A stretch of DNA of 30,476 nucleotides from a virus. Below are positions 3,076 to 25,100 of the stretch, in pieces. The stretch is taken from positions 1-30,476 of the IMG/VR virus record IMGVR_UViG_3300046804_004895. One strand, written 5' to 3'. Position numbers and translations under genes: made by a program. Position 1 is the stretch's first letter. Each line of letters starts with the position of its first letter. A model generated the notes under the pieces. The model had not been told where the DNA came from, ran no database searches, and saw nothing but the letters and a program-made list of their open reading frames with translations.

Positions 3076-3083
3076 CATAAATA
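3076..3083 (+). promoter_or_regulatory. Late-promoter-like octamer CATAAATA
   Basis: One mismatch to TATAAATA, on the plus strand, 83 nt before the ATG at 3167. It would give a leader of about 78 nt, unusually long for this window. Together with the octamer at 3056-3063 it forms a compact divergent promoter pair. Confidence 0.6.
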
Positions 3084-3166
3084 AAATTAACGTAATTCTG
3101 CGTTTTATGCGGATACCACCGCGTAGTGGCTAGAACCCACATCGGACTTCTATAAGGAGAAAACAA

Positions 3167-3991
3167 ATGGGACGTCCTCTCAAAATTCAAAAATATGGCC
3201 CTGCACAGGGTATCACCAACGGTGCCAACGGCGCACTAAACCAACCAGCCGCAGCAGTAACAGTCGATGCAGGCTATCCAAACTGGGGTAGTCTCACTGA
3301 TCCTGTTTATCCTACCACTGCTTTCAACACTGATCAATTCTTGGGTGTTGTCGGTGGCGATTACACACTCAGCCAACCAAGCACAACATATCCTGTTGTT
3401 AAATGCCAAGTTAACATTCAACTTCCAAGCGGTGCTGGCGCCGGCGTGCATGATGGCCGCATCATCCGTCAGAAAGGTTCACACAAGTATTTGGTAGCCG
3501 ATGGTACCACTCTTAACGACGAAGAAATGGTTGTTGGCGCAAGTTACCAGATTCTTAGCTTAGACACTACCAATTGGCAACAGATGGGTGCACCAGCAGG
3601 TGCTATTTCAGGAACAATCTTTACCTGCACCGCACTTTGTGCTAACCCACAAAACGGTACTGGTTTGCTTGTTGGCCAATGTGTTTTGACCAGCGACCTG
3701 ACCCCCGGACCGGGACTAATGGCCATCAGCTATACCACAGGTGACTCAACCGCAGTTGCTATTTCTAAGTTGACCAACAAGTTCTTGTTGAACTGGGATA
3801 ACTTCCAGAATGCCGACGGCACAAGCTTAGACAGTTATGCCAGCGGTGGCAACAACACTGGTGAAGTTATTTACAGTGGCGAAGGCGAACTAGCCGCCAA
3901 CTTCTTCACAGACGAAGGCACTGTTACAAAGTCTGGGTCAGAGCTCAACGCTTCACTCGACTTGGCTATCGTGGAAAACTTCACTTCTTAA
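3167..3991 (+). CDS. Putative virion structural protein (conserved, function unknown)
   Basis: 274 aa beginning MGRPLKIQKYG, an N-terminus I associate with a conserved but unassigned protein found near capsid genes in marine T4-like phages. The composition is Gly/Ala/Thr/Asn-rich with predicted beta structure, no transmembrane segment and no catalytic motif that I can see. The basic N-terminus is followed by a Gly/Asn-rich stretch. A good AAGGAG Shine-Dalgarno (3154-3159) sits upstream of ATG 3167. It has its own late-type promoter and is closed by a strong terminator hairpin at 4012-4044, so it is probably a monocistronic late transcript, consistent with a virion component made in quantity. 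A head decoration role is possible from the position after gene 23, but this is inference. Confidence 0.75.
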   Translation: MGRPLKIQKYGPAQGITNGANGALNQPAAAVTVDAGYPNWGSLTDPVYPTTAFNTDQFLGVVGGDYTLSQPSTTYPVVKCQVNIQLPSGAGAGVHDGRIIRQKGSHKYLVADGTTLNDEEMVVGASYQILSLDTTNWQQMGAPAGAISGTIFTCTALCANPQNGTGLLVGQCVLTSDLTPGPGLMAISYTTGDSTAVAISKLTNKFLLNWDNFQNADGTSLDSYASGGNNTGEVIYSGEGELAANFFTDEGTVTKSGSELNASLDLAIVENFTS

Positions 3992-4044: not shown

Positions 4045-4632
4045 ATGAGCATAGCATTTATATTAGGTAACGGAATTAGTCGTCAAGGATTACCTCTGCA
4101 TGATATACAAAAGCATGGCTCAATATACGGCTGTAATGGTTTACATCGAGATTTTATACCGGATGTCTTGGTGGCCACTGACACCCCGATTGCATTATAC
4201 ATTGAATCAATTGGATATCCCCTTGAGCATAAGTTTTACACACGTCGCCCTATGTTGGGGAAAGGTGGATTATCTATTCCTAGACCTTACTTTGGCTACA
4301 GTTCAGGGCCGGTAGCAGTGGCATTGGCAGCACTGGAGCAACACAAAAAAATATACATGTTGGGATTTGACATGGGCCCAACTGAAAATAAAAAATTCAA
4401 TAATGTGTATGCAGGAACTGAATTCTACAAAGAGCCTGGCTCAAATCCCACGTACACTGGTAATTGGATCAAGCAAATACAACAAATTTGTCGTGAATTC
4501 TCGGGAACCAAGTTTGTCAGAGTGTGTGGGAAAACCACAGCAAGGCTGCCAGAACTTGATGGCATTAAAAATATGGAACACCTTGCACTGGATCGCTTTG
4601 TAGAGCGGATAAATAATGTGAAGGATCTTTAA
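4045..4632 (+). CDS. Rossmann-like, sialyltransferase/DUF115-type putative enzyme
   Basis: 195 aa. The N-terminus has a nucleotide-sugar-type loop 'FILGNGISRQG' (residues 5-15), then 'IYGCNGLHRDFIPDVLVATD' near residues 27-46. The second half has 'SGPVAVALAALEQHKKIYML' followed by 'GFDMG' (near 90-114). The order GNG-S / CN...PD...D / (K)xIYxxGxD resembles GT42 sialyltransferases and DUF115/MptE-like proteins; the resemblance is by motif pattern only. The C-terminal half resembles the protein at 14485-15147, so the two may be distant paralogues. The stop codon directly abuts the ATG of the fibre gene at 4633, implying co-translation with the fibre cluster. Glycosylation of fibres or of a host or virion sugar is an inference. 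The only Shine-Dalgarno lies in the terminator stem. Confidence 0.8.
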   Translation: MSIAFILGNGISRQGLPLHDIQKHGSIYGCNGLHRDFIPDVLVATDTPIALYIESIGYPLEHKFYTRRPMLGKGGLSIPRPYFGYSSGPVAVALAALEQHKKIYMLGFDMGPTENKKFNNVYAGTEFYKEPGSNPTYTGNWIKQIQQICREFSGTKFVRVCGKTTARLPELDGIKNMEHLALDRFVERINNVKDL

Positions 4633-5972: not shown

Positions 5973-5980
5973 ACTAAATA
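5973..5980 (+). promoter_or_regulatory. Late-promoter-like octamer ACTAAATA
   Basis: A CTAAATA-type variant of the late octamer, as also seen before the genes at 11632, 13161 and 19767. The predicted start is near 5986, giving a leader of about 12 nt before ATG 5998. Confidence 0.6.
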
Positions 5981-5997: not shown

Positions 5998-6669
5998 ATG
6001 ACAATAAGTTATCTCACAGGTCCAATGCTGAATTCCACCCTCAACAGGGGTGGAATCGATTTGTCCATTACTAATGCCAATGTAACCATTGGCAATATAA
6101 CCATTGCCAACGTGGGAAATGTCAATGCTGGCAACGTCAACATCAACAATTTGGCAAATCCCAGTCAAAATCAAGATGCTGCTACAAAATACTATGTTGA
6201 TCAAATAGCTGGCAATGGAATCAGCAATATTGGCAATTTAACAGTCACTGACACCACAATTACTACTGTAACTGCCAATGCCAACATCAATATTGATCCC
6301 AACGGAACTGGCACATTTCAAATCATAGGCACCAATGGATTTGTTATTCCCATTGGCAACGTAGCCCAACGCCCTGTGTCCCCCAGCGAAGGCACACTGA
6401 GATTCAACAACGATTACGACAGACTTGAATACTATGATGGCACAGAATGGGACGTAGTAGCCGGTGGCATTACCAATCAGACCATAACCACAGCCAATGG
6501 TGTTACAACTATTTTTACGCTGGATCGTGATTCAACCACTGCTGCAACGCTGATCATGCTCAACGGTATTGTGCAGCTGCCAACCACTGCTTACAGCGTG
6601 TCTGGCAACACACTGACCTTTACGCAAGCACCCGAAACCAACGATATTATAGACATTCGTTTCTTGTAA
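5998..6669 (+). CDS. Tail fibre protein with DAATKYYVD motif and fibre-tip-like module
   Basis: 223 aa. The N-terminal ~50 residues are a 'GNVNAGNVNINNLA'-type shaft. Next comes 'NPSQNQDAATKYYVDQIAGN' (about 55-74), a widespread phage tail-fibre motif that also appears near residue 490 of the 1606-aa fibre. Residues about 113-223 are the 'GFVIPIGNVAQRP ... LRFNNDYDRLEYYDGTEWD ... VSGNTLTFTQAPETND' module shared with the genes at 5577 and 6735. The whole resembles a miniature version of the large fibre without its long repeat shaft. It has its own CTAAATA-type late promoter, with a small hairpin across the ribosome-binding region. Role: fibre component or alternative receptor-binding subunit (inferred). 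Confidence 0.8.
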   Translation: MTISYLTGPMLNSTLNRGGIDLSITNANVTIGNITIANVGNVNAGNVNINNLANPSQNQDAATKYYVDQIAGNGISNIGNLTVTDTTITTVTANANINIDPNGTGTFQIIGTNGFVIPIGNVAQRPVSPSEGTLRFNNDYDRLEYYDGTEWDVVAGGITNQTITTANGVTTIFTLDRDSTTAATLIMLNGIVQLPTTAYSVSGNTLTFTQAPETNDIIDIRFL

Positions 6670-6682
6670 ACCCCAAATATCT

Positions 6683-6732
6683 CTTTTTTCCAATCTACAT
6701 AAATAATTCATAAATTAGAGATTGGAAAAAAG
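6683..6732 (+). promoter_or_regulatory. 14-bp RBS-sequestering hairpin with a late promoter in its loop
   Basis: Perfect 14-bp stem: 6683-6696 pairs with 6719-6732. The 22-nt loop (6697-6718) carries the late octamer CATAAATA. The 3' arm holds the Shine-Dalgarno-like GGA (6724-6726), and ATG 6735 lies 2 nt beyond the stem. A transcript starting at the loop promoter (predicted +1 near 6711) lacks the 5' arm and leaves the RBS free; read-through RNA would fold and block it. The arrangement matches the known T4 gene e switch. Confidence 0.8.
6698..6705 (+). promoter_or_regulatory. Late promoter octamer CATAAATA for the 1606-aa fibre
   Basis: One mismatch to TATAAATA. Predicted start near 6711, leader about 24 nt to ATG 6735. 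It sits inside the loop of the hairpin described at 6683-6732. Confidence 0.75.
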
Positions 6733-6734
6733 CC

Positions 6735-9700
6735 ATGGCTGTGACTCGTATAAACAACAATCAGATTTCAGACGCAAGTGCAGGAAATATCTACGTAGGT
6801 ATTAATGCTGCGGTAAAATTACAAAATTACAGTGTCACGGCGACCAAAATTGCCAACAACTTGACCTATGGATCAGATCTTACAGTTACCGGTAACCTGA
6901 TTGTTCAGGGCAATACCACAACAATTGATACCACTTACACCACAATTGAAGACCCAGTTATATTATTGGCGTCTAATCAAACAGGTTCTCCATCGGTGGA
7001 CATTGGTTTTATTGGACAGCGTGGCAACAACATCGCATTTGTCTGGGACGAAAGCGCCAAAGAATTTGTAACAGTTTACACAGCCACTGGAGAAACCAAC
7101 ACCACAATCAACATTGCCAGCTATGCTGATCTGCACATGGGCAATGCCAACATTGGTGGAAACACAGTAATCAACGGAACAACCAGTTTGGTTGGTAATT
7201 TGATTGGTGCTGTTAATGTAACCGGCAACATCACAACTGGCAATCTACTGACTCCGGGGCAGGTCAGTGCAACTGGTAACATCACTTCTACTGCAAACGT
7301 TGCTGGTGGTAACATCAACACTGGAGGACAAGTAAGCGCAACAGCCAACATCACTGGTGGTAATTTGATTACCAGCGGATTGATCACTGCAACTGGCAAC
7401 ATTACATCTACAGCCAATGTCACTGGCGGTAACTTACTGACCAGTGGATTGATCAGTGCAACAGGCAACATAAGCTCTGCAGGAAACATCACTGCAAGTT
7501 ACTACTTTGGTAATGGTAGTCAGTTAACTGGTGTCTCTGCCAATACATCTGGATTCCCAGTTAGTGCTGGAACATCTAATATCAATGCTGTCAGTGGCGG
7601 CAACATTTTTGTATCAATTGGCGGAACACCAAACGTTGTTGTTTGGGCCACCACGGGTGAATATGTAAATGGGTTAGTTTCTGTAACTGGCAACGTAAGA
7701 GCGGGTAACGTTGTTGTTCCAGGCGGCAACGTAGATGTGATTAATTTTATCAATGCTGGAGCAGTTATTACCACTGGTCTAATACAAGCCGGCACAACCA
7801 TGTCAGCGGCTGGTAACATAACTGGCGCAAACATCAACACGGGCGGATTGGTTACTGCCACAGGCAACATCACTTCCACTGCCAATGTTGCTGGCGGCAA
7901 TATAATTGCTACAACCACAGTGTCTGCTGCCAGTGTATTGGGATCCGTTGTATCTGCATTAGGTAATGTAACTGGTGGTAATTTGATAACCAGTGGATTG
8001 GTTACTGCCACAGGCAACATTACCAGCTCTGCTAATGTAGCAGGTGGCAACTTGGTGGCAACCACAGCAGTTGTGACTCCAACAGTGACTGGAACAACAG
8101 TAACCATTAGTTCAACTGGTGGTTTAATTACACTTGCTCCGAGCAGTAACGTCAGCGTTAGCAGTAAAAACATCAATAACTTGGCTCAACCAGTTCAAGA
8201 TCAAGATGCTGCAACAAAACTCTATGTTGACAACATGGTATCAACACAGTTGGCATATCACCAAGGTGTTTTTGCAGCCACAACAGGCACGCTGGAAACA
8301 GCCACAGGCGGCACAATTACCTATGCTCAACCCAACGGTGCTGGCAACGGTGTGGGCGCTACACTCACAGTAGCAGGCGGAACATTCAATTTAATTGATA
8401 CTGCAAATATTCAAACAGCCAACACTCGTGTGTTGGTCAAGAACCAGGCCAATGCAGCTCTAAACGGCGTTTACATTTGGTCAAACGCTACAATACTAAC
8501 ACGTTCCACTGACACTGACGAATATGGTGCAAACAGTTCAGAACAGTTGAGTGTCAATGATTATTTCTTTGTATCCAGTGGCAACGTCAACGCTGGTAGT
8601 GCATGGATTGTTGACTCTCCATCAGGCACAATTACATTTGGTACTAGCAACATTTCGTTTGCTCAGTTTAGTTCAAGCCAAACATACACTGCTAACACAC
8701 AGGCTGGTATACTTTTTACCGGCACTGTTATTAGTGCCAAAGTTGACAACAACACCACTGCGTTTGACGGCGGCGGTAATATCATTGTCAAAGCTGGTGC
8801 AAACTTAACTACACCTAACATTGGTGCCGCCACAGGCACAAGCCTCAGTGTTACTGGAAACTTAACCGGCGCTGGTGCAAACATCAGCGGAAATGTCACC
8901 GGTGGCAACTTGATAACCAGCGGATTAGTCACAGCCTCAGGCAACATTACAGGTGGTAACATTACCACAGCTGGATTGGTTACTGCCACAGGCAACATTA
9001 CTAGTTCTGCCAACGTCACTGGTGGTAACATTACCACAGCTGGTTTGGTTACTGCCACTGGCAACATCACCAGCTCTGCTAATGTAGCAGGTGGTAATGT
9101 AATTGCTACTACTACTGTTAGTGCAGCCAGCGTTTTAGGATCTGTTGTATCTGCATCAGGTAATGTAACTGGCGGTAATTTGATAACCAGTGGACTGGTA
9201 ACAGCAACTGGTAACATTACCTCCACAGCCAATGTTGCTGGCGGCAATGTAATTGCAACCACCGCAATATCTGCACCAACTATCACTGGAACTACTGTAT
9301 CTGCAAGTGGCAACGTTACCGGTGGCAATTTAATTACCGGTGGATTGATCACAGCAACTGGCAACATTACATCTACTGCCAATGTCACTGGTGGAAATAT
9401 TACCACGGCCGGGTTGATTACAGCAACTGGTAACATTACGTCTACTGCTAACGTCATTGGTGGAAATGTAATAACCAGTGGTATAGTAAGTGCCACAGGA
9501 AACATCAATGGAGGTAATGTTAACACCACATCTGTGATTGGCACCACAGTATCCATGAGTGGTAACATCACCGGTGCTAATTTGAACACAGGTGGAGCCA
9601 ACGGTCTAACACTAAATGCCAGCACTATCAATTCCAATGCTGGTAGAATTACCATTAACTCAAATGGCAGTGACGTAGACTTTGCTGTTGATAGCGATGC

Positions 9701-11555
9701 CACAGCCAACGTATTCTATGTAGATGCAGGCACTGGCACAGTAAGCATTGGTAGCTCAACACAAACAACCAATGCTGCACTGGCAATAAATACCACAAAC
9801 TCGTTCTTGATGCCTGTGGGTAATACTGCACAGCGTCCTGCAGTTGGTGTAACAGGTATGTTACGCTTTAACTCTACATTGGATGCAGTTGAAGTATACG
9901 ATACAGATAGTTGGAGCACAGTTGGAACACCAAGTTTTACTGTCGTAACAGATGATCAGTTCACAGGCAACGGAGTGCAAACCATCTACACGTTGGCCAA
10001 TGCTTACACCACAAACTCTGTGATTGTCAGCATCAACGGTGTAGTGCAGATTCCTACCACATCATATTCTGTGTCAGGAAATTCTCTAACATTCACTGAA
10101 GCACCTCAACAAGGTGACTTCATTGATGTTCGTGGATTGACCACAACCACGCAAGTTACTTCTATCAGCAACAGTCCAGGCAACGCTGTCGTTAGTGTTG
10201 ACCCAATGCTAAACGAAGTTGATATCACTGGCAATTTACTGCCTGTTGCCAACAATGTTCAGAGTTTGGGATCTCAAACACTGCGTTGGAAAGATCTATA
10301 TGTTGCTGGCAACAGTATCTACATTGGCAACATTGTGATGAAGAACACCAGTGGAAACACTGTGGCGTTCTACGGTCCAGATGGAACTACTCCTGCTACA
10401 CTGGATTCAACCAACGTTGATACCACAACAATTGCTAACGGAACATCCAATGTTACTGTGGCAAGTTCAGGCGGTAACGTAAGAGTCAATGTCGGTGGAA
10501 CCAGCAACGTAATGGTTGTAAACTCAACCGGTGTAGAAATTACTGGAAACCTAAGTGTTACTGGAAATGCCACACTAAGCGGTAACATTTTGGGCGACAG
10601 AGTACAGAATGGTACAACCAGCTTTGATATTCAAACACAAAACGGTAATGCCAACGTTTCAGTCAGCGGAACCAGCAACGTGGCAGTGTTTGCATCAACA
10701 GGATTGTATGTAACTGGTGTCACCAGCGCCACTGGCAATATTACTAGTGCAGGAAATATATCAGGCGCATTCTTGTTGGGTAATGCTAGTTTTGTCACTG
10801 GATTAAGTGCAAGTAAGATTTTCAACGGAACTACAGAAGCCAATATTGGCACATCTAGTGGTAATGCTAACATTTCAGTAGGCGGAACCAGCAACGTGGC
10901 AGTGTTTGCAAGCACTGGATTGTTTGTAACTGGTGTTGTTTCGGCAACAGGTAATATCACTTCAACAGCCAACGTAACTGGCGGAAATATCACCACTGCT
11001 GGATTGATTACAGCAACAGGTGCTATTACTGGTGCTGCACTTACTGGAACTAGTTTAACAGTATCTACTGGTAACGTAACACTAGGCAATATAGTAAACG
11101 CCGGGGCCAACGGTGTTGGCAACATTGGTAGCGCAACTACCTATTTCAACACTGTATTTGCCAAAGCAACATCAGCTCAATATGCTGACTTGGCAGAAAA
11201 CTACACAGCTGATGCACACTACGAACCAGGAACTGTGCTTAGTTTTGGAGGCACCGCCGAAGTAACAATATCTATAGTTTCAGGAGATTCTAGAATCGCT
11301 GGTGTGGTATCTACTAACCCAAGTTATATCATGAACTCAACACTAGAAAGCGAGAATGTAGTTACTATTGCTCTAACTGGTAGAGTTCCTACTAAAGTTA
11401 CAGGAGCTGTGCGAAAAGGAGACATGATGGTCAGTGATGGCACTGGACGAGCAATGGCATGTGCAACGCCTGCAATGGGAACTGTAATTGGTAAAGCCCT
11501 CGAGAATAACGAAGGCGGAAACGCAGTTATTGAAGTGGTTGTGGGAAGACTATAA
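6735..11555 (+). CDS. Giant repeat-rich tail fibre (1606 aa)
   Basis: Order of parts: an N-terminal attachment-like region (1-130); repeat shaft built on 'TATGNITSTANVTGGN'-type units (about 150-450); 'QDQDAATKLYVD' near 485-496; a fibre domain with 'NTRVLVKNQANAALNGVYIW' (about 560-580); a second long repeat shaft (about 710-950); the 'MPVGNTAQRP ... LTFTEAPQQGD' module (about 1023-1134); a 'GTSNVMVVNSTGVEITGN ... SGNILGDRVQNGTTSFD' region shared with the gene at 13161 (about 1254-1430); and a C-terminal domain 'YADLAENYTADAHYEPGTVL ... GRVPTKV ... VIEVVVGRL' typical of T4-like marine phage fibres. The periodic Gly-Asn-Ile/Val pattern suggests a fibrous beta-structured trimer. No S74 intramolecular chaperone motif is seen. 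Probably the main long fibre for receptor contact. Confidence 0.9.
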   Translation: MAVTRINNNQISDASAGNIYVGINAAVKLQNYSVTATKIANNLTYGSDLTVTGNLIVQGNTTTIDTTYTTIEDPVILLASNQTGSPSVDIGFIGQRGNNIAFVWDESAKEFVTVYTATGETNTTINIASYADLHMGNANIGGNTVINGTTSLVGNLIGAVNVTGNITTGNLLTPGQVSATGNITSTANVAGGNINTGGQVSATANITGGNLITSGLITATGNITSTANVTGGNLLTSGLISATGNISSAGNITASYYFGNGSQLTGVSANTSGFPVSAGTSNINAVSGGNIFVSIGGTPNVVVWATTGEYVNGLVSVTGNVRAGNVVVPGGNVDVINFINAGAVITTGLIQAGTTMSAAGNITGANINTGGLVTATGNITSTANVAGGNIIATTTVSAASVLGSVVSALGNVTGGNLITSGLVTATGNITSSANVAGGNLVATTAVVTPTVTGTTVTISSTGGLITLAPSSNVSVSSKNINNLAQPVQDQDAATKLYVDNMVSTQLAYHQGVFAATTGTLETATGGTITYAQPNGAGNGVGATLTVAGGTFNLIDTANIQTANTRVLVKNQANAALNGVYIWSNATILTRSTDTDEYGANSSEQLSVNDYFFVSSGNVNAGSAWIVDSPSGTITFGTSNISFAQFSSSQTYTANTQAGILFTGTVISAKVDNNTTAFDGGGNIIVKAGANLTTPNIGAATGTSLSVTGNLTGAGANISGNVTGGNLITSGLVTASGNITGGNITTAGLVTATGNITSSANVTGGNITTAGLVTATGNITSSANVAGGNVIATTTVSAASVLGSVVSASGNVTGGNLITSGLVTATGNITSTANVAGGNVIATTAISAPTITGTTVSASGNVTGGNLITGGLITATGNITSTANVTGGNITTAGLITATGNITSTANVIGGNVITSGIVSATGNINGGNVNTTSVIGTTVSMSGNITGANLNTGGANGLTLNASTINSNAGRITINSNGSDVDFAVDSDATANVFYVDAGTGTVSIGSSTQTTNAALAINTTNSFLMPVGNTAQRPAVGVTGMLRFNSTLDAVEVYDTDSWSTVGTPSFTVVTDDQFTGNGVQTIYTLANAYTTNSVIVSINGVVQIPTTSYSVSGNSLTFTEAPQQGDFIDVRGLTTTTQVTSISNSPGNAVVSVDPMLNEVDITGNLLPVANNVQSLGSQTLRWKDLYVAGNSIYIGNIVMKNTSGNTVAFYGPDGTTPATLDSTNVDTTTIANGTSNVTVASSGGNVRVNVGGTSNVMVVNSTGVEITGNLSVTGNATLSGNILGDRVQNGTTSFDIQTQNGNANVSVSGTSNVAVFASTGLYVTGVTSATGNITSAGNISGAFLLGNASFVTGLSASKIFNGTTEANIGTSSGNANISVGGTSNVAVFASTGLFVTGVVSATGNITSTANVTGGNITTAGLITATGAITGAALTGTSLTVSTGNVTLGNIVNAGANGVGNIGSATTYFNTVFAKATSAQYADLAENYTADAHYEPGTVLSFGGTAEVTISIVSGDSRIAGVVSTNPSYIMNSTLESENVVTIALTGRVPTKVTGAVRKGDMMVSDGTGRAMACATPAMGTVIGKALENNEGGNAVIEVVVGRL
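7200..8065 (+). repeat. Coding repeats, first shaft of the 1606-aa fibre
   Basis: Degenerate in-frame units of about 20-23 codons with the core 'ATGNITSTANV(T/A)GGN(I/L)', clearest at 7260-7500 and 7850-8060. They are diverged at the DNA level, so they are older than the 69-bp array at 12370. Confidence 0.8.
8890..9560 (+). repeat. Coding repeats, second shaft of the 1606-aa fibre
   Basis: About ten in-frame units of the same type ('GLVTATGNITSSANV(T/A)GGN'). Some blocks repeat longer stretches, e.g. the 'IATTTVSAASVLGSVVSA' block here (near 9106-9160) also occurs in the first shaft (near 7909-7960), indicating duplication of multi-repeat segments. Confidence 0.8.
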
Positions 11556-21081: not shown

Positions 21082-21722
21082 TCATTGGAATCTGTGGATT
21101 TATTGGCTCGGGCAAAGACACTGTTGCAGATTATCTTGTAAATTTACATCATTTTCGCAGAGAAAGTTTTGCCAACAGTCTCAAAGATGCAGTGGCACAG
21201 ATATTTGGCTGGGACAGAACCATGCTTGAAGGCCGCACTAAGCAAGGCAGAGAATGGCGAGAACAGCGTGATGAGTGGTGGAGCCATAGGTTAGGTCAAG
21301 AGGTAACTCCTCGTTTGATGCTGCAACTATGGGGCACAGAGGTCTGCAGACGCAGCTTTCACGATGATATTTGGATTGCCAGCTTGGAAAACAAGCTTCG
21401 TAACTCTCAAGATGACATTGTAATTACAGACTGTAGATTTCCCAATGAAATCAAATCAATCAAAGCAGCCGGCGGAAAGATAGTAAGGGTAATGCGCGGC
21501 GCGGAGCCCGAATGGTATGATCATGCTGTAAAATACAACGCTGGACCAACTCAAATTGGATGGACTCTAGGCAAAGAAGCACTGAATCGAGTTGGAATTC
21601 ACGCCAGCGAATACAGCTGGGTGGGAACCAAATTTGATGCAATATTAGACAACAACGGAACTTTAGACGATTTGTATAATAAAGTCAAAGATCTGGTTCA
21701 AGATCACCCTGGTTCCAAGTAA
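21078..21722 (+). CDS. 1: Deoxynucleoside monophosphate kinase (T4 gp1-like)
   Basis: 214 aa. The P-loop 'GFIGSGKDT' (7-15) is followed by 'VADYL', as in dNMP kinases. 'SFANSLKDAVAQIFGW' (about 33-48) is the usual acceptor-side helix, and 'PRLMLQLWGTEVCRRSFHDD ... IW' (about 79-100) and 'DIVITDCRFPNEIKSIKAAG' (about 114-133) match the family's LMQxLGTD and DxRxxxE regions. The enzyme phosphorylates dNMPs to supply dNTP synthesis for phage DNA. T4 gp1 is 241 aa; length and motifs are complete. It overlaps the exonuclease by 4 bp (ATGA), so both come from the sigma70 promoter at 20529, suggesting early expression. The 3' end overlaps the antisense HNH gene by 38 bp. Confidence 0.92.
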   Translation: MIIGICGFIGSGKDTVADYLVNLHHFRRESFANSLKDAVAQIFGWDRTMLEGRTKQGREWREQRDEWWSHRLGQEVTPRLMLQLWGTEVCRRSFHDDIWIASLENKLRNSQDDIVITDCRFPNEIKSIKAAGGKIVRVMRGAEPEWYDHAVKYNAGPTQIGWTLGKEALNRVGIHASEYSWVGTKFDAILDNNGTLDDLYNKVKDLVQDHPGSK

Positions 21723-22032
21723 GATTGCTGCGCTTTATTTGCTCAGCACAATTGAGACAAATGGTTTTTAAATTACGGGTGTCGTTGTTGTGTAAATTTC
21801 CATCAACATGAAATACCTGTAGTTGAGCTGAATATCTTGCTCTAAACCCGCATCGATCACATGCGGGTTTTTTCTTATAGCCTGCGGTTTGCCAACGAGG
21901 AACTGGAGCCTTGATCTTCTTGTTTTTTCGTATGCATACCTCGCAACGACTTCGATAGTAAATTTTGTCTCCGCGATAGCAGTTTATTGCCCGTGGCCGT
22001 TGATTGCAAACTGGACAAATTGGTCTCTTCAT
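21685..22032 (-). CDS. Zinc-binding HNH-type protein (putative endonuclease)
   Basis: 115 aa. Cysteine pairs C6-C9, C30-C33, C58-C61 and C92-C95 suggest zinc knuckles. 'FHVDGNLHNNDTRNLKTICL' (74-93) followed by NC is the HNH-like beta-beta-alpha region (H75, D77, N79, N87). I recognise the start MKRPICPVCNQRP and the 'WQTAGYKKKPACDRCGF' block from a protein frequent in T4-like phages of aquatic bacteria, commonly labelled HNH endonuclease. Whether it is a homing enzyme or a packaging/processing nuclease is unknown. It is transcribed against its neighbours from a perfect TATAAATA octamer only 5 nt before the ATG, with no Shine-Dalgarno. Confidence 0.8.
   Translation of the reverse strand: MKRPICPVCNQRPRAINCYRGDKIYYRSRCEVCIRKNKKIKAPVPRWQTAGYKKKPACDRCGFRARYSAQLQVFHVDGNLHNNDTRNLKTICLNCAEQIKRSNLTWNQGDLEPDL
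21844..21873 (+). terminator. Plus-strand intrinsic terminator inside the antisense HNH gene
   Basis: Perfect 10-bp stem (21844-21853 with 21861-21870), 7-nt loop, T run through 21873, about 120 nt after the dNMP kinase stop. The arms are the codons around the third zinc knuckle (C58-C61) of the antisense gene. No T run on the minus strand, so it should act only on plus-strand transcripts. Confidence 0.65.
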
Positions 22033-22037
22033 TTTAA

Positions 22038-22045
22038 TATTTATA
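22038..22045 (-). promoter_or_regulatory. Perfect late promoter TATAAATA for the HNH gene
   Basis: Exact T4 late consensus on the minus strand. With the T4 geometry, +1 falls on the A of ATG 22032: a leaderless message is predicted. Confidence 0.75.
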
Positions 22046-22095
22046 TCAAAACCTTACAGTAAGGGCTCTTAGGAAGGCCTCTTTTTGGATCTATC

Positions 22096-22103
22096 GATAA
22101 ATA
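22096..22103 (+). promoter_or_regulatory. Late promoter octamer GATAAATA for the tail sheath gene
   Basis: One mismatch to consensus. Predicted +1 near 22109, leader about 20 nt with AAGGA (22118-22122) before ATG 22129. A 6-bp CTTTTT/AAAAAG pairing (22081-22086 with 22115-22120) again places the 5' arm upstream of +1, but it is weak. Confidence 0.7.
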
Positions 22104-22128
22104 TCATTAGCTAGAAAAAGGATTTACC

Positions 22129-25100
22129 ATGGCACTAATTTCACCCGGCGTAGAAGTAACAGTAATCGACGAAAGTCAGTATATACCTGCTGCGACCAAT
22201 TCAGTCCCTTATGTGTTGATTGCAACAGCACAAAACAAAGTCTCAGGAACAGGAACTGGTGTTGCCGCAGGCACATTACAGGCAAATGCAAACGTTCCTT
22301 ATTTAATTACAAGTCAACGAGATTTGTCAGCTACTTTTGGGGTTCCATTCTTTTACAAAACCACCGCTGGTACACCTATCAATGGGTACGAGCTCAACGA
22401 ATATGGATTGCTCGCTGCTTATTCGGCTCTTGGTGTTTCTAATCGTTGCTATGTTCAACGTGCAGATATTGACCTATCAGAACTCACTGCTACTTTGACT
22501 CGCCCCACTGGCAACCCCGATGATGGTGATTATTGGTTAGATACTGCAAACACAGTCTGGGGAGTTTTCCAGTGGAATCAAACCACTGCGGCATTTACAA
22601 ATCAAATTCCTATTGTACTTACCAACAGTTCAGACCTTGACAGCACTGTTCCTTTGCAAACAATTGGCTCAATCGGAGATTATTCTGTTGTTGCAGTCAA
22701 TTCTGTAACTGTTCACAATCCAATTTATTACAAACGCGGTGGTCCCAGCACCGATTCATATAGTTCAACTGCAAATTATTCTTCATCAACAGATTTAGTT
22801 GATTTGTACAACAATTGGGTTCTACTAGGCAGCGACGAATGGAAAACAGCTTGGCCAACCATACAAGGTACAAATACCAGTCCTACTCTTACCAACGGAG
22901 ATACAGTTGTTATTAACGGGCAAACTGTTAATGTCGGCAACGGCTCAACAGCAAACGTAAAAATTCTGTCAGACAACATCAACACTGCTGCTATTGCAGG
23001 TGTTTACTCTGGCGTTGCCAACGGTAAATTAGTAATTTATGCAGATTCCACTGCCACTGCCGATGGCTCTACCGCAGGCGAGGGTGCGGTTATAATTGAA
23101 AACGGCACAGGAACGCCACTAACGGCTGTTGGTATCACTGCCAAAACATACTATGCTCCTGCCTTTTTTGCTGGTGCAAGTTATAATCAACCTCGTTGGA
23201 GATCAACTGACACACAACCAGAACCAACAGGATCTGTGTGGCAAAAGACCAACAACGTAAATCTTGGCGCCAATCTTGTGTTAAAGAAATATTCCAGTGT
23301 GTTGGGAACATTTGTTCAGCAAGCCGTGCCAATTTATGCCGGTGGTGGCAATGCAATATACGCACTAGATCCCAGTGGCGGCGGCAAAAATATTCCAATT
23401 GGTACAACCTGGGCAAGATTGAATCCCGGTTTTAGTATACCAGACACTGCCGGTCTGGAGATTAGTGAATTTTATGCCACTGGAGCTACAGTAATCACAG
23501 GTGATACCACTAGTCCAGGACCGTTTGTGAATGGTAATCAGTTCACTATTAGAGCAACACAACCAGGAACACCAGACGTAACTTCGGCAGTAACTGCCAC
23601 CATAAATGGAACAACAGTGGCAGATTTTATTTCTGCTGTGTCAGCCGCTGCTGTACCTTATGTTAGTGCTTCTGTAAACAGTGACGGCGCTATTGTGTTT
23701 ACTCACAGTAGTGGTGGAGCAATTGTGTTGGCCAACACAACCGGAGTTCCACTTACAACAGCTGGATTCAATACAACCATCAAAGGTGTTAGCCCCGGTG
23801 GCCTGGAAAATCAGTTGATTTTGTCAAACTTCACTGCTAGTCCTTATTTTACATACACATCAAGTGACACACCACCCAATCAAGATCCTGCTGACGGCAG
23901 ACTTTGGTATTACAGTTCTGTGAATCAAGTTGATATCATGATTCAAAACGACGGTAATTGGATGGGATATCAGATGGTGGACAATGATGTACGCGGTTAT
24001 AATCTAACTGATACCAACGCCAGCGGTCCGATCTTTTCTCCCACTGCCCCATTGACTCAAACTGACACAGCGCAGAGTCCATTGGTATATGGAGATTTGT
24101 GGATTGACACTGCTGACCTTGAAAACTACCCAGTAATTAGTCGTTGGGAAAATGTCGACGGAGTTGATCAATGGGTTCAGATTGTAAATACAGATCAAAC
24201 AACTGAAAACGGTATTGTATTTGCCGATGCTCGTTGGGCACCAAACGGAACAACAGATCCTATCAGCGATCCTATTCCCAGCATTGCAAGTTTGTTGGTC
24301 AGTGATTATTTGGATTTAGATGCTCCTAACCCTGCACTGTATCCACAAGGTATGTTGTTGTTCAACACACGTCGTAGCGGCTACAATGTCAAGAGTTTCC
24401 AAATTGATTATTTTAACGCACAAAGTTTTCCAGATGATATATTACCCACAGTGACCAACGCTTGGGTAAATGCCAGCGGAAACAAGTCCAATGGTAGTCC
24501 ATACATGGGAAGGCAAGCACAGAGATCAATCATTGTGCAGGCACTTAAATCTGGTATTGACGCATCAAGTGAGATCAGAGAAGAACAACGTCAGTTCAAC
24601 TTGATTGCTTGCCCTCAGTATCCAGAGCTCATCCCTAACATGGTAGAACTCAATAACGATCGTAACAATACTGCTTTTGTTATAGGTGATACACCATTGA
24701 GATTGGCCCCTGATGCTGCCACAATTCAATCGTGGGCAACCGACAATAGTGGTCGAGGATTTGGTTCGGGGGATGGGTTGACTACTGCTGACAGTTATCT
24801 TGGAGTATTCTATCCCAGCTGCCAAACTACCGATCTTAGTGGCAGTTTAGTTGTTCAACCACCAAGCCATATGATGTTGAGAACTATTTTACGTTCAGAC
24901 GAAGTTTCTTATCCATGGCTTGCTCCAGCTGGAACTAGACGCGGTGTGATTGACAATGCTTTGCGCATTGGATATGTAAACGCAACCACAGGAGAATTTA
25001 TAACACTGGGTGTAAATCAAGGACTGCGAGACGTTCTGTACGAAATTGATATTAACCCAATTACATTTGTTCCAGGGGTTGGTATTACTAACTTCGGCAA

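Follow-up and report, generated by a model that had tools for sequence, protein, structure and literature searches.

A candidate start-site-dependent translation gate of the T4 gene e type ahead of a giant tail-fibre-like gene in a T4-like phage

Known start-hiding devices

Leaders that hide a translation start have been reviewed for the T4 genes e, soc, 49, I-TevI, I-TevII, I-TevIII and segB, and for mobE of phage Aeh1 (PMC2988022, PMC3014915). The late genes covered by these reviews share transcripts with genes for early and middle products (PMC2988022, PMC3014915). In I-TevI, I-TevII, I-TevIII, segB and mobE, the ribosome binding site is masked on upstream transcripts, and a late start frees it (PMC2988022). 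The late genes soc and 49 likewise have their start region masked on long transcripts (PMC3014915).

The locus considered here lies upstream of a tail-fibre-like gene in the window, the whole analysed stretch of 30,476 nucleotides, which is a 30-kb virus fragment of a T4-like phage. In its major head protein, this phage shares about 68% identity with cultured jumbo phages (e.g., PA5oct and Vibrio 2.275.O). As in T4 gene e, the late-promoter octamer of the fibre leader lies in a hairpin loop and the start region in the 3′ arm; the octamer of I-TevII is also found in a loop, whereas the folds predicted for soc and 49 leave it outside the loop. The geometry is therefore that of the T4 e / I-TevII device, and the unusual part is its location at a structural fibre gene. 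Gene e, by contrast, encodes lysozyme, has two late octamers, is read through from early transcription, and differs in sequence and protein. The I-Tev genes, segB and mobE encode homing endonucleases located in introns or between early and middle genes, while soc encodes a capsid decoration protein and 49 an endonuclease. The preliminary description of this DNA had suggested an undescribed variant. This view has to be given up, since the loops of T4 e and I-TevII also hold a late octamer and the mechanism has already been reviewed (PMC2988022, PMC3014915). In the titles and abstracts of the open-access papers retrieved, no such gate was found on a tail-fibre or sheath gene.

The hairpin and its surroundings

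The elements of the locus and of its upstream region are as follows.

4608–4615, + strand: octamer GATAAATA upstream of gene 4633, a possible source of read-through
5973–5980, + strand: octamer ACTAAATA upstream of gene 5998, a possible source of read-through; its count in the window is no more than chance
5998–6669, + strand: upstream fibre-like gene, with its stop 13 nt before the 5′ arm
6683–6696, + strand: 5′ arm CTTTTTTCCAATCT, which precedes the predicted late start and is thus expected only in read-through RNA
6698–6705, + strand: octamer CATAAATA of the late promoter, located in the loop and unchanged throughout the aligned close relatives
6710–6711, + strand: predicted transcription start, placed 12–13 nt after the first base of the octamer by the freshwater-2 offset
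6719–6732, + strand: 3′ arm AGATTGGAAAAAAG with the Shine-Dalgarno-like GGA at 6724–6726
6735–11555, + strand: repetitive tail-fibre-like gene of 1606 aa, the gene presumed to be controlled by the element

The two arms form a perfect 14-bp inverted repeat around a 22-nt loop that contains the late octamer, upstream of the fibre ATG at 6735. Every coordinate given for these elements in the preliminary description was confirmed. The stem is the longest perfect one in the window (loops of 3–40 nt), and stems of at least 14 bp arise in 0.2% of 998 dinucleotide shuffles of the window, a figure that does not yet take into account the octamer within the loop or the start codon 3 nt past the arm. The hairpin region has an RNA fold z of −2.44, and the hairpin alone is predicted to be worth −14.1 kcal/mol. 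The 3′ arm makes up the region where translation of the fibre gene starts, and the stem ends 2 nt short of the ATG. A Shine-Dalgarno sequence had also been placed in this arm. The GGA, 8 nt ahead of the ATG, is indeed there, but it is weak, and the counterpart of the GGAG seen in close relatives is AGAG at 6717–6720, which is split evenly between loop and arm.

The upstream neighbours of the fibre gene are fibre-like or unassigned, and late octamers precede genes 3167, 4633 and 5998, so that these neighbours, judged by sequence, look late as well. Read-through from them is plausible because no terminator-like site is present on the + strand between 5174 and 7586. The position of the upstream stop, 13 nt before the stem, means that a terminating ribosome should not melt it. 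The hairpin was also considered as a terminator and rejected: no T-run follows the 3′ arm, and no + strand terminator-like site is found there.

Late promoter and predicted transcription start

The octamer CATAAATA differs by one letter from TATAAATA of T4 and is the commonest or joint-commonest octamer form upstream of open reading frames (ORFs) in several related genomes. In the window and seven related records, TAAATA octamers upstream of ORFs occur mainly on the sense strand (sense to antisense 9:2 in the window and about 2–6:1 in the relatives), typically 25–37 nt ahead of the start codon. A late sigma factor of the gp55 family is encoded once per genome in five of the eight records searched, all five being larger relatives; the 30-kb window, itself a fragment, gave no match.

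The position of the transcription start was calibrated on an unrelated RNA, and the offset obtained was then applied to the fibre gene. The 14 records searched, namely the window and 13 relatives, each hold a single copy of this RNA, freshwater-2 (Rfam RF02980), and in the seven oriented copies it begins 12–13 nt after the first base of an octamer. Transferred to the fibre leader, the offset predicts a start at about 6710, past the 5′ arm, which ends at 6696, and ahead of the 3′ arm. A late transcript starting there would lack the 5′ arm.

The freshwater-2 copy of the window (74.7 bits, 3088–3169, + strand) starts 12 nt after the first base of the CATAAATA at 3076–3083 and extends as far as the start codon of ORF 3167. 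Its single copy per record and its start 12–13 nt after an octamer suggest that freshwater-2 forms the leader at the 5′ end of a late phage mRNA.

Predicted cost of opening the start region

For read-through and late-start RNA, the opening cost was computed over a region that runs from 16 nt ahead of the ATG to the end of that codon. For the fibre gene, the predicted cost is 16.0 kcal/mol on read-through RNA versus 3.3 kcal/mol on RNA starting at about 6710. The identical script gave read-through and late-start values of 16.5 and 2.5 kcal/mol for T4 e, 16.5 and 3.7 for 49, and 13.4 and 0.4 for I-TevII. Three other late genes of the window cost 4.0–6.3 kcal/mol on read-through RNA. The fibre leader tops a list of 157 late-octamer sites, drawn from eight phage records, when these are ordered by start-region pairing to sequence lying before the start.

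Conservation in related phages

Fibre leaders of relatives were taken from IMG/VR. A hairpin is present at the equivalent place in L001 and L014, in L008 with a 2-nt bulge, and in L003 with an internal loop; those of L040 and L042 are weaker, being shorter or imperfect. In tests that shuffled only the segment upstream of the octamer, and whose p-values are not independent among relatives, start-region pairing gave p = 0.005 for the window, 0.01 for L008 and L001, 0.02 for L040, 0.04 for L014 and 0.05 for L003. The imperfect stem kept by L042 gave p = 0.82 under the same upstream-segment shuffle. Of the distant fibre orthologues, the majority show no such pairing, and p-values across the whole fibre family are not shifted (KS 0.17). 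In the distant orthologue L360, a 17-bp stem of unrelated sequence has the octamer in its loop, and its arm contains GGAG (p = 0.005). The element is consequently restricted to a lineage, with hints of independent rebuilding.

The preliminary description had looked to related phages for compensatory changes in the two arms. Outer-stem pairs altered on both sides do occur, namely four T-A to A-T changes in L003 and one G-C pair in L001, but formal covariation on six sequences is not significant: with four pairs changed on both sides, the observed score was reached in 79 of 500 shuffles.

Two pattern scans of viral contigs combining the arm and the octamer returned 37 and 52 stretches. Octamer-bracketing stems before an ORF among these comprised fibre leaders and a few short unrelated candidates. 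No DNA match was found in phage records, and no relative in contigs of bacterial or archaeal genomes.

Proposed mechanism and alternative explanations

The fibre leader probably works as a translation gate whose state depends on the RNA start site, as in T4 gene e and I-TevII. Read-through RNA from the upstream late genes would carry both arms and fold the 14-bp hairpin over the fibre start region, and such RNA would be poorly translated for the fibre. A late holoenzyme of the gp55 type would instead start at the loop octamer, at about 6710, giving an RNA that lacks the 5′ arm and can be translated. What the analysis shows is the sequence, the fold prediction, the recurrence in close relatives and a late sigma gene in larger relatives, whereas the start point, the read-through and the effect on translation are inferred. 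The analogy with T4 gene e that had been drawn earlier holds for the geometry and the predicted energetics, and the element recurs at an equivalent position in close relatives. Exclusive translation of the fibre from its own late transcript, as put forward in the preliminary description, would be a further, conjectural step.

Other functions can be imagined for the same sequence. The 5′ arm might be a DNA element of the late promoter, such as a T-tract or spacer, with an incidental complementarity to the A-rich start region. A T5 tract is indeed found between −25 and −8 upstream of 11% of late octamers versus 2.5% of octamers within ORFs, and the sheath leader retains a T-tract in most relatives. 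This explanation is nevertheless improbable: in L003 the A-rich stretch lies on the 5′ side and the T-rich one on the 3′ side, L014 and L040 pair despite having no T-tract, and the base profile of 137 sites shows no general upstream element. A similarly low probability is assigned to the hairpin acting as a stability or processing element of read-through RNA (protection of a 5′ or 3′ end, or an RNase site), with start hiding as a side effect. A stable hairpin between two genes that have no terminator-like site between them would suit such a role; however, the stem covers exactly the start region up to 2 nt before the ATG, and its predicted energetics agree with those of the T4 translation gates.

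The dyad symmetry around the promoter also recalls an operator for a dimeric regulator, a possibility modelled on I-TevI, which represses its own late promoter (PMC2988022). The 22-nt centre speaks against a DNA-level inverted repeat of this kind, as do arms that drift among relatives yet continue to pair, a constraint that an operator would not impose; the operator reading is consequently very unlikely. Equally hard to credit is a chance repeat retained through short common descent. It would fit the non-significant covariation and the absence of the hairpin from the majority of distant relatives, but not the 0.2% frequency in shuffles, the changes on both sides of the stem, or fibre 5′ ends whose DNA identity to the window is just 74–81% in those relatives that keep the hairpin.

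If the leader does work as a translation gate, the T4 logic of early read-through and late start is not directly transferable, because the upstream neighbours look late too. The biological benefit is accordingly less obvious than in T4. With a structural fibre gene and late-looking upstream neighbours, the gate would tell one class of late RNA from another.

Tail sheath and other late genes

A weaker second instance of the layout is found at the tail-sheath gene.

22096–22103, + strand: octamer GATAAATA ahead of the tail-sheath gene (ATG 22129), set between CTTTTT and AAAAAG

In 40 non-redundant sheath leaders, the distribution of pairing p-values is shifted (KS 3e-5, without correction for kinship). 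In the sheath leaders L236–L315, the start region recurrently pairs upstream of the octamer, with sequences that differ by relative (e.g., L282 and L315). The families 28770 and 4633, used as negative controls, show no shift in only 7 and 13 non-redundant leaders, respectively. Pairing as a general feature of late promoters was rejected: across 150 late sites, p ≤ 0.05 was reached in 10% versus 5.5% of controls, which makes it slightly commoner.

A broader and more tentative possibility is that the gate in this jumbo-phage group separates two late messages, uncoupling large virion proteins (the fibre and, more weakly, the sheath) from upstream late polycistronic RNA. Their own promoter would then set the dose, and the pairing would be rebuilt with different sequences across lineages. 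The predicted fibre gate extends a control device well known from T4 to a giant structural protein and to jumbo phages of the T4-like kind that are uncultured. It offers a testable idea, namely that start-site-dependent hairpins set the dose of virion proteins, beyond delaying lysis or endonuclease genes.

Several smaller observations were made in the window and its relatives. In 22038–22129, CCTTACAGTAAGGGC is located between the divergent octamers of a small HNH-like gene (21685–22032, − strand) and of the sheath gene; most relatives inspected carry a palindrome resembling it, for example CCTTTGCCAAAGGGC. Two short ORFs of 101 and 98 aa (G012 L203 at about 5728 and G010 L164 at about 19622) have similar leaders, CATAAATA...ATGTAGGAGTTTA, and their start regions pair imperfectly with sequence upstream of the octamer. 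Finally, the related record G002 carries the Rfam Polynucleobacter-1 RNA (91.1 bits, L145 769–904), which points to a freshwater betaproteobacterium as a possible host.
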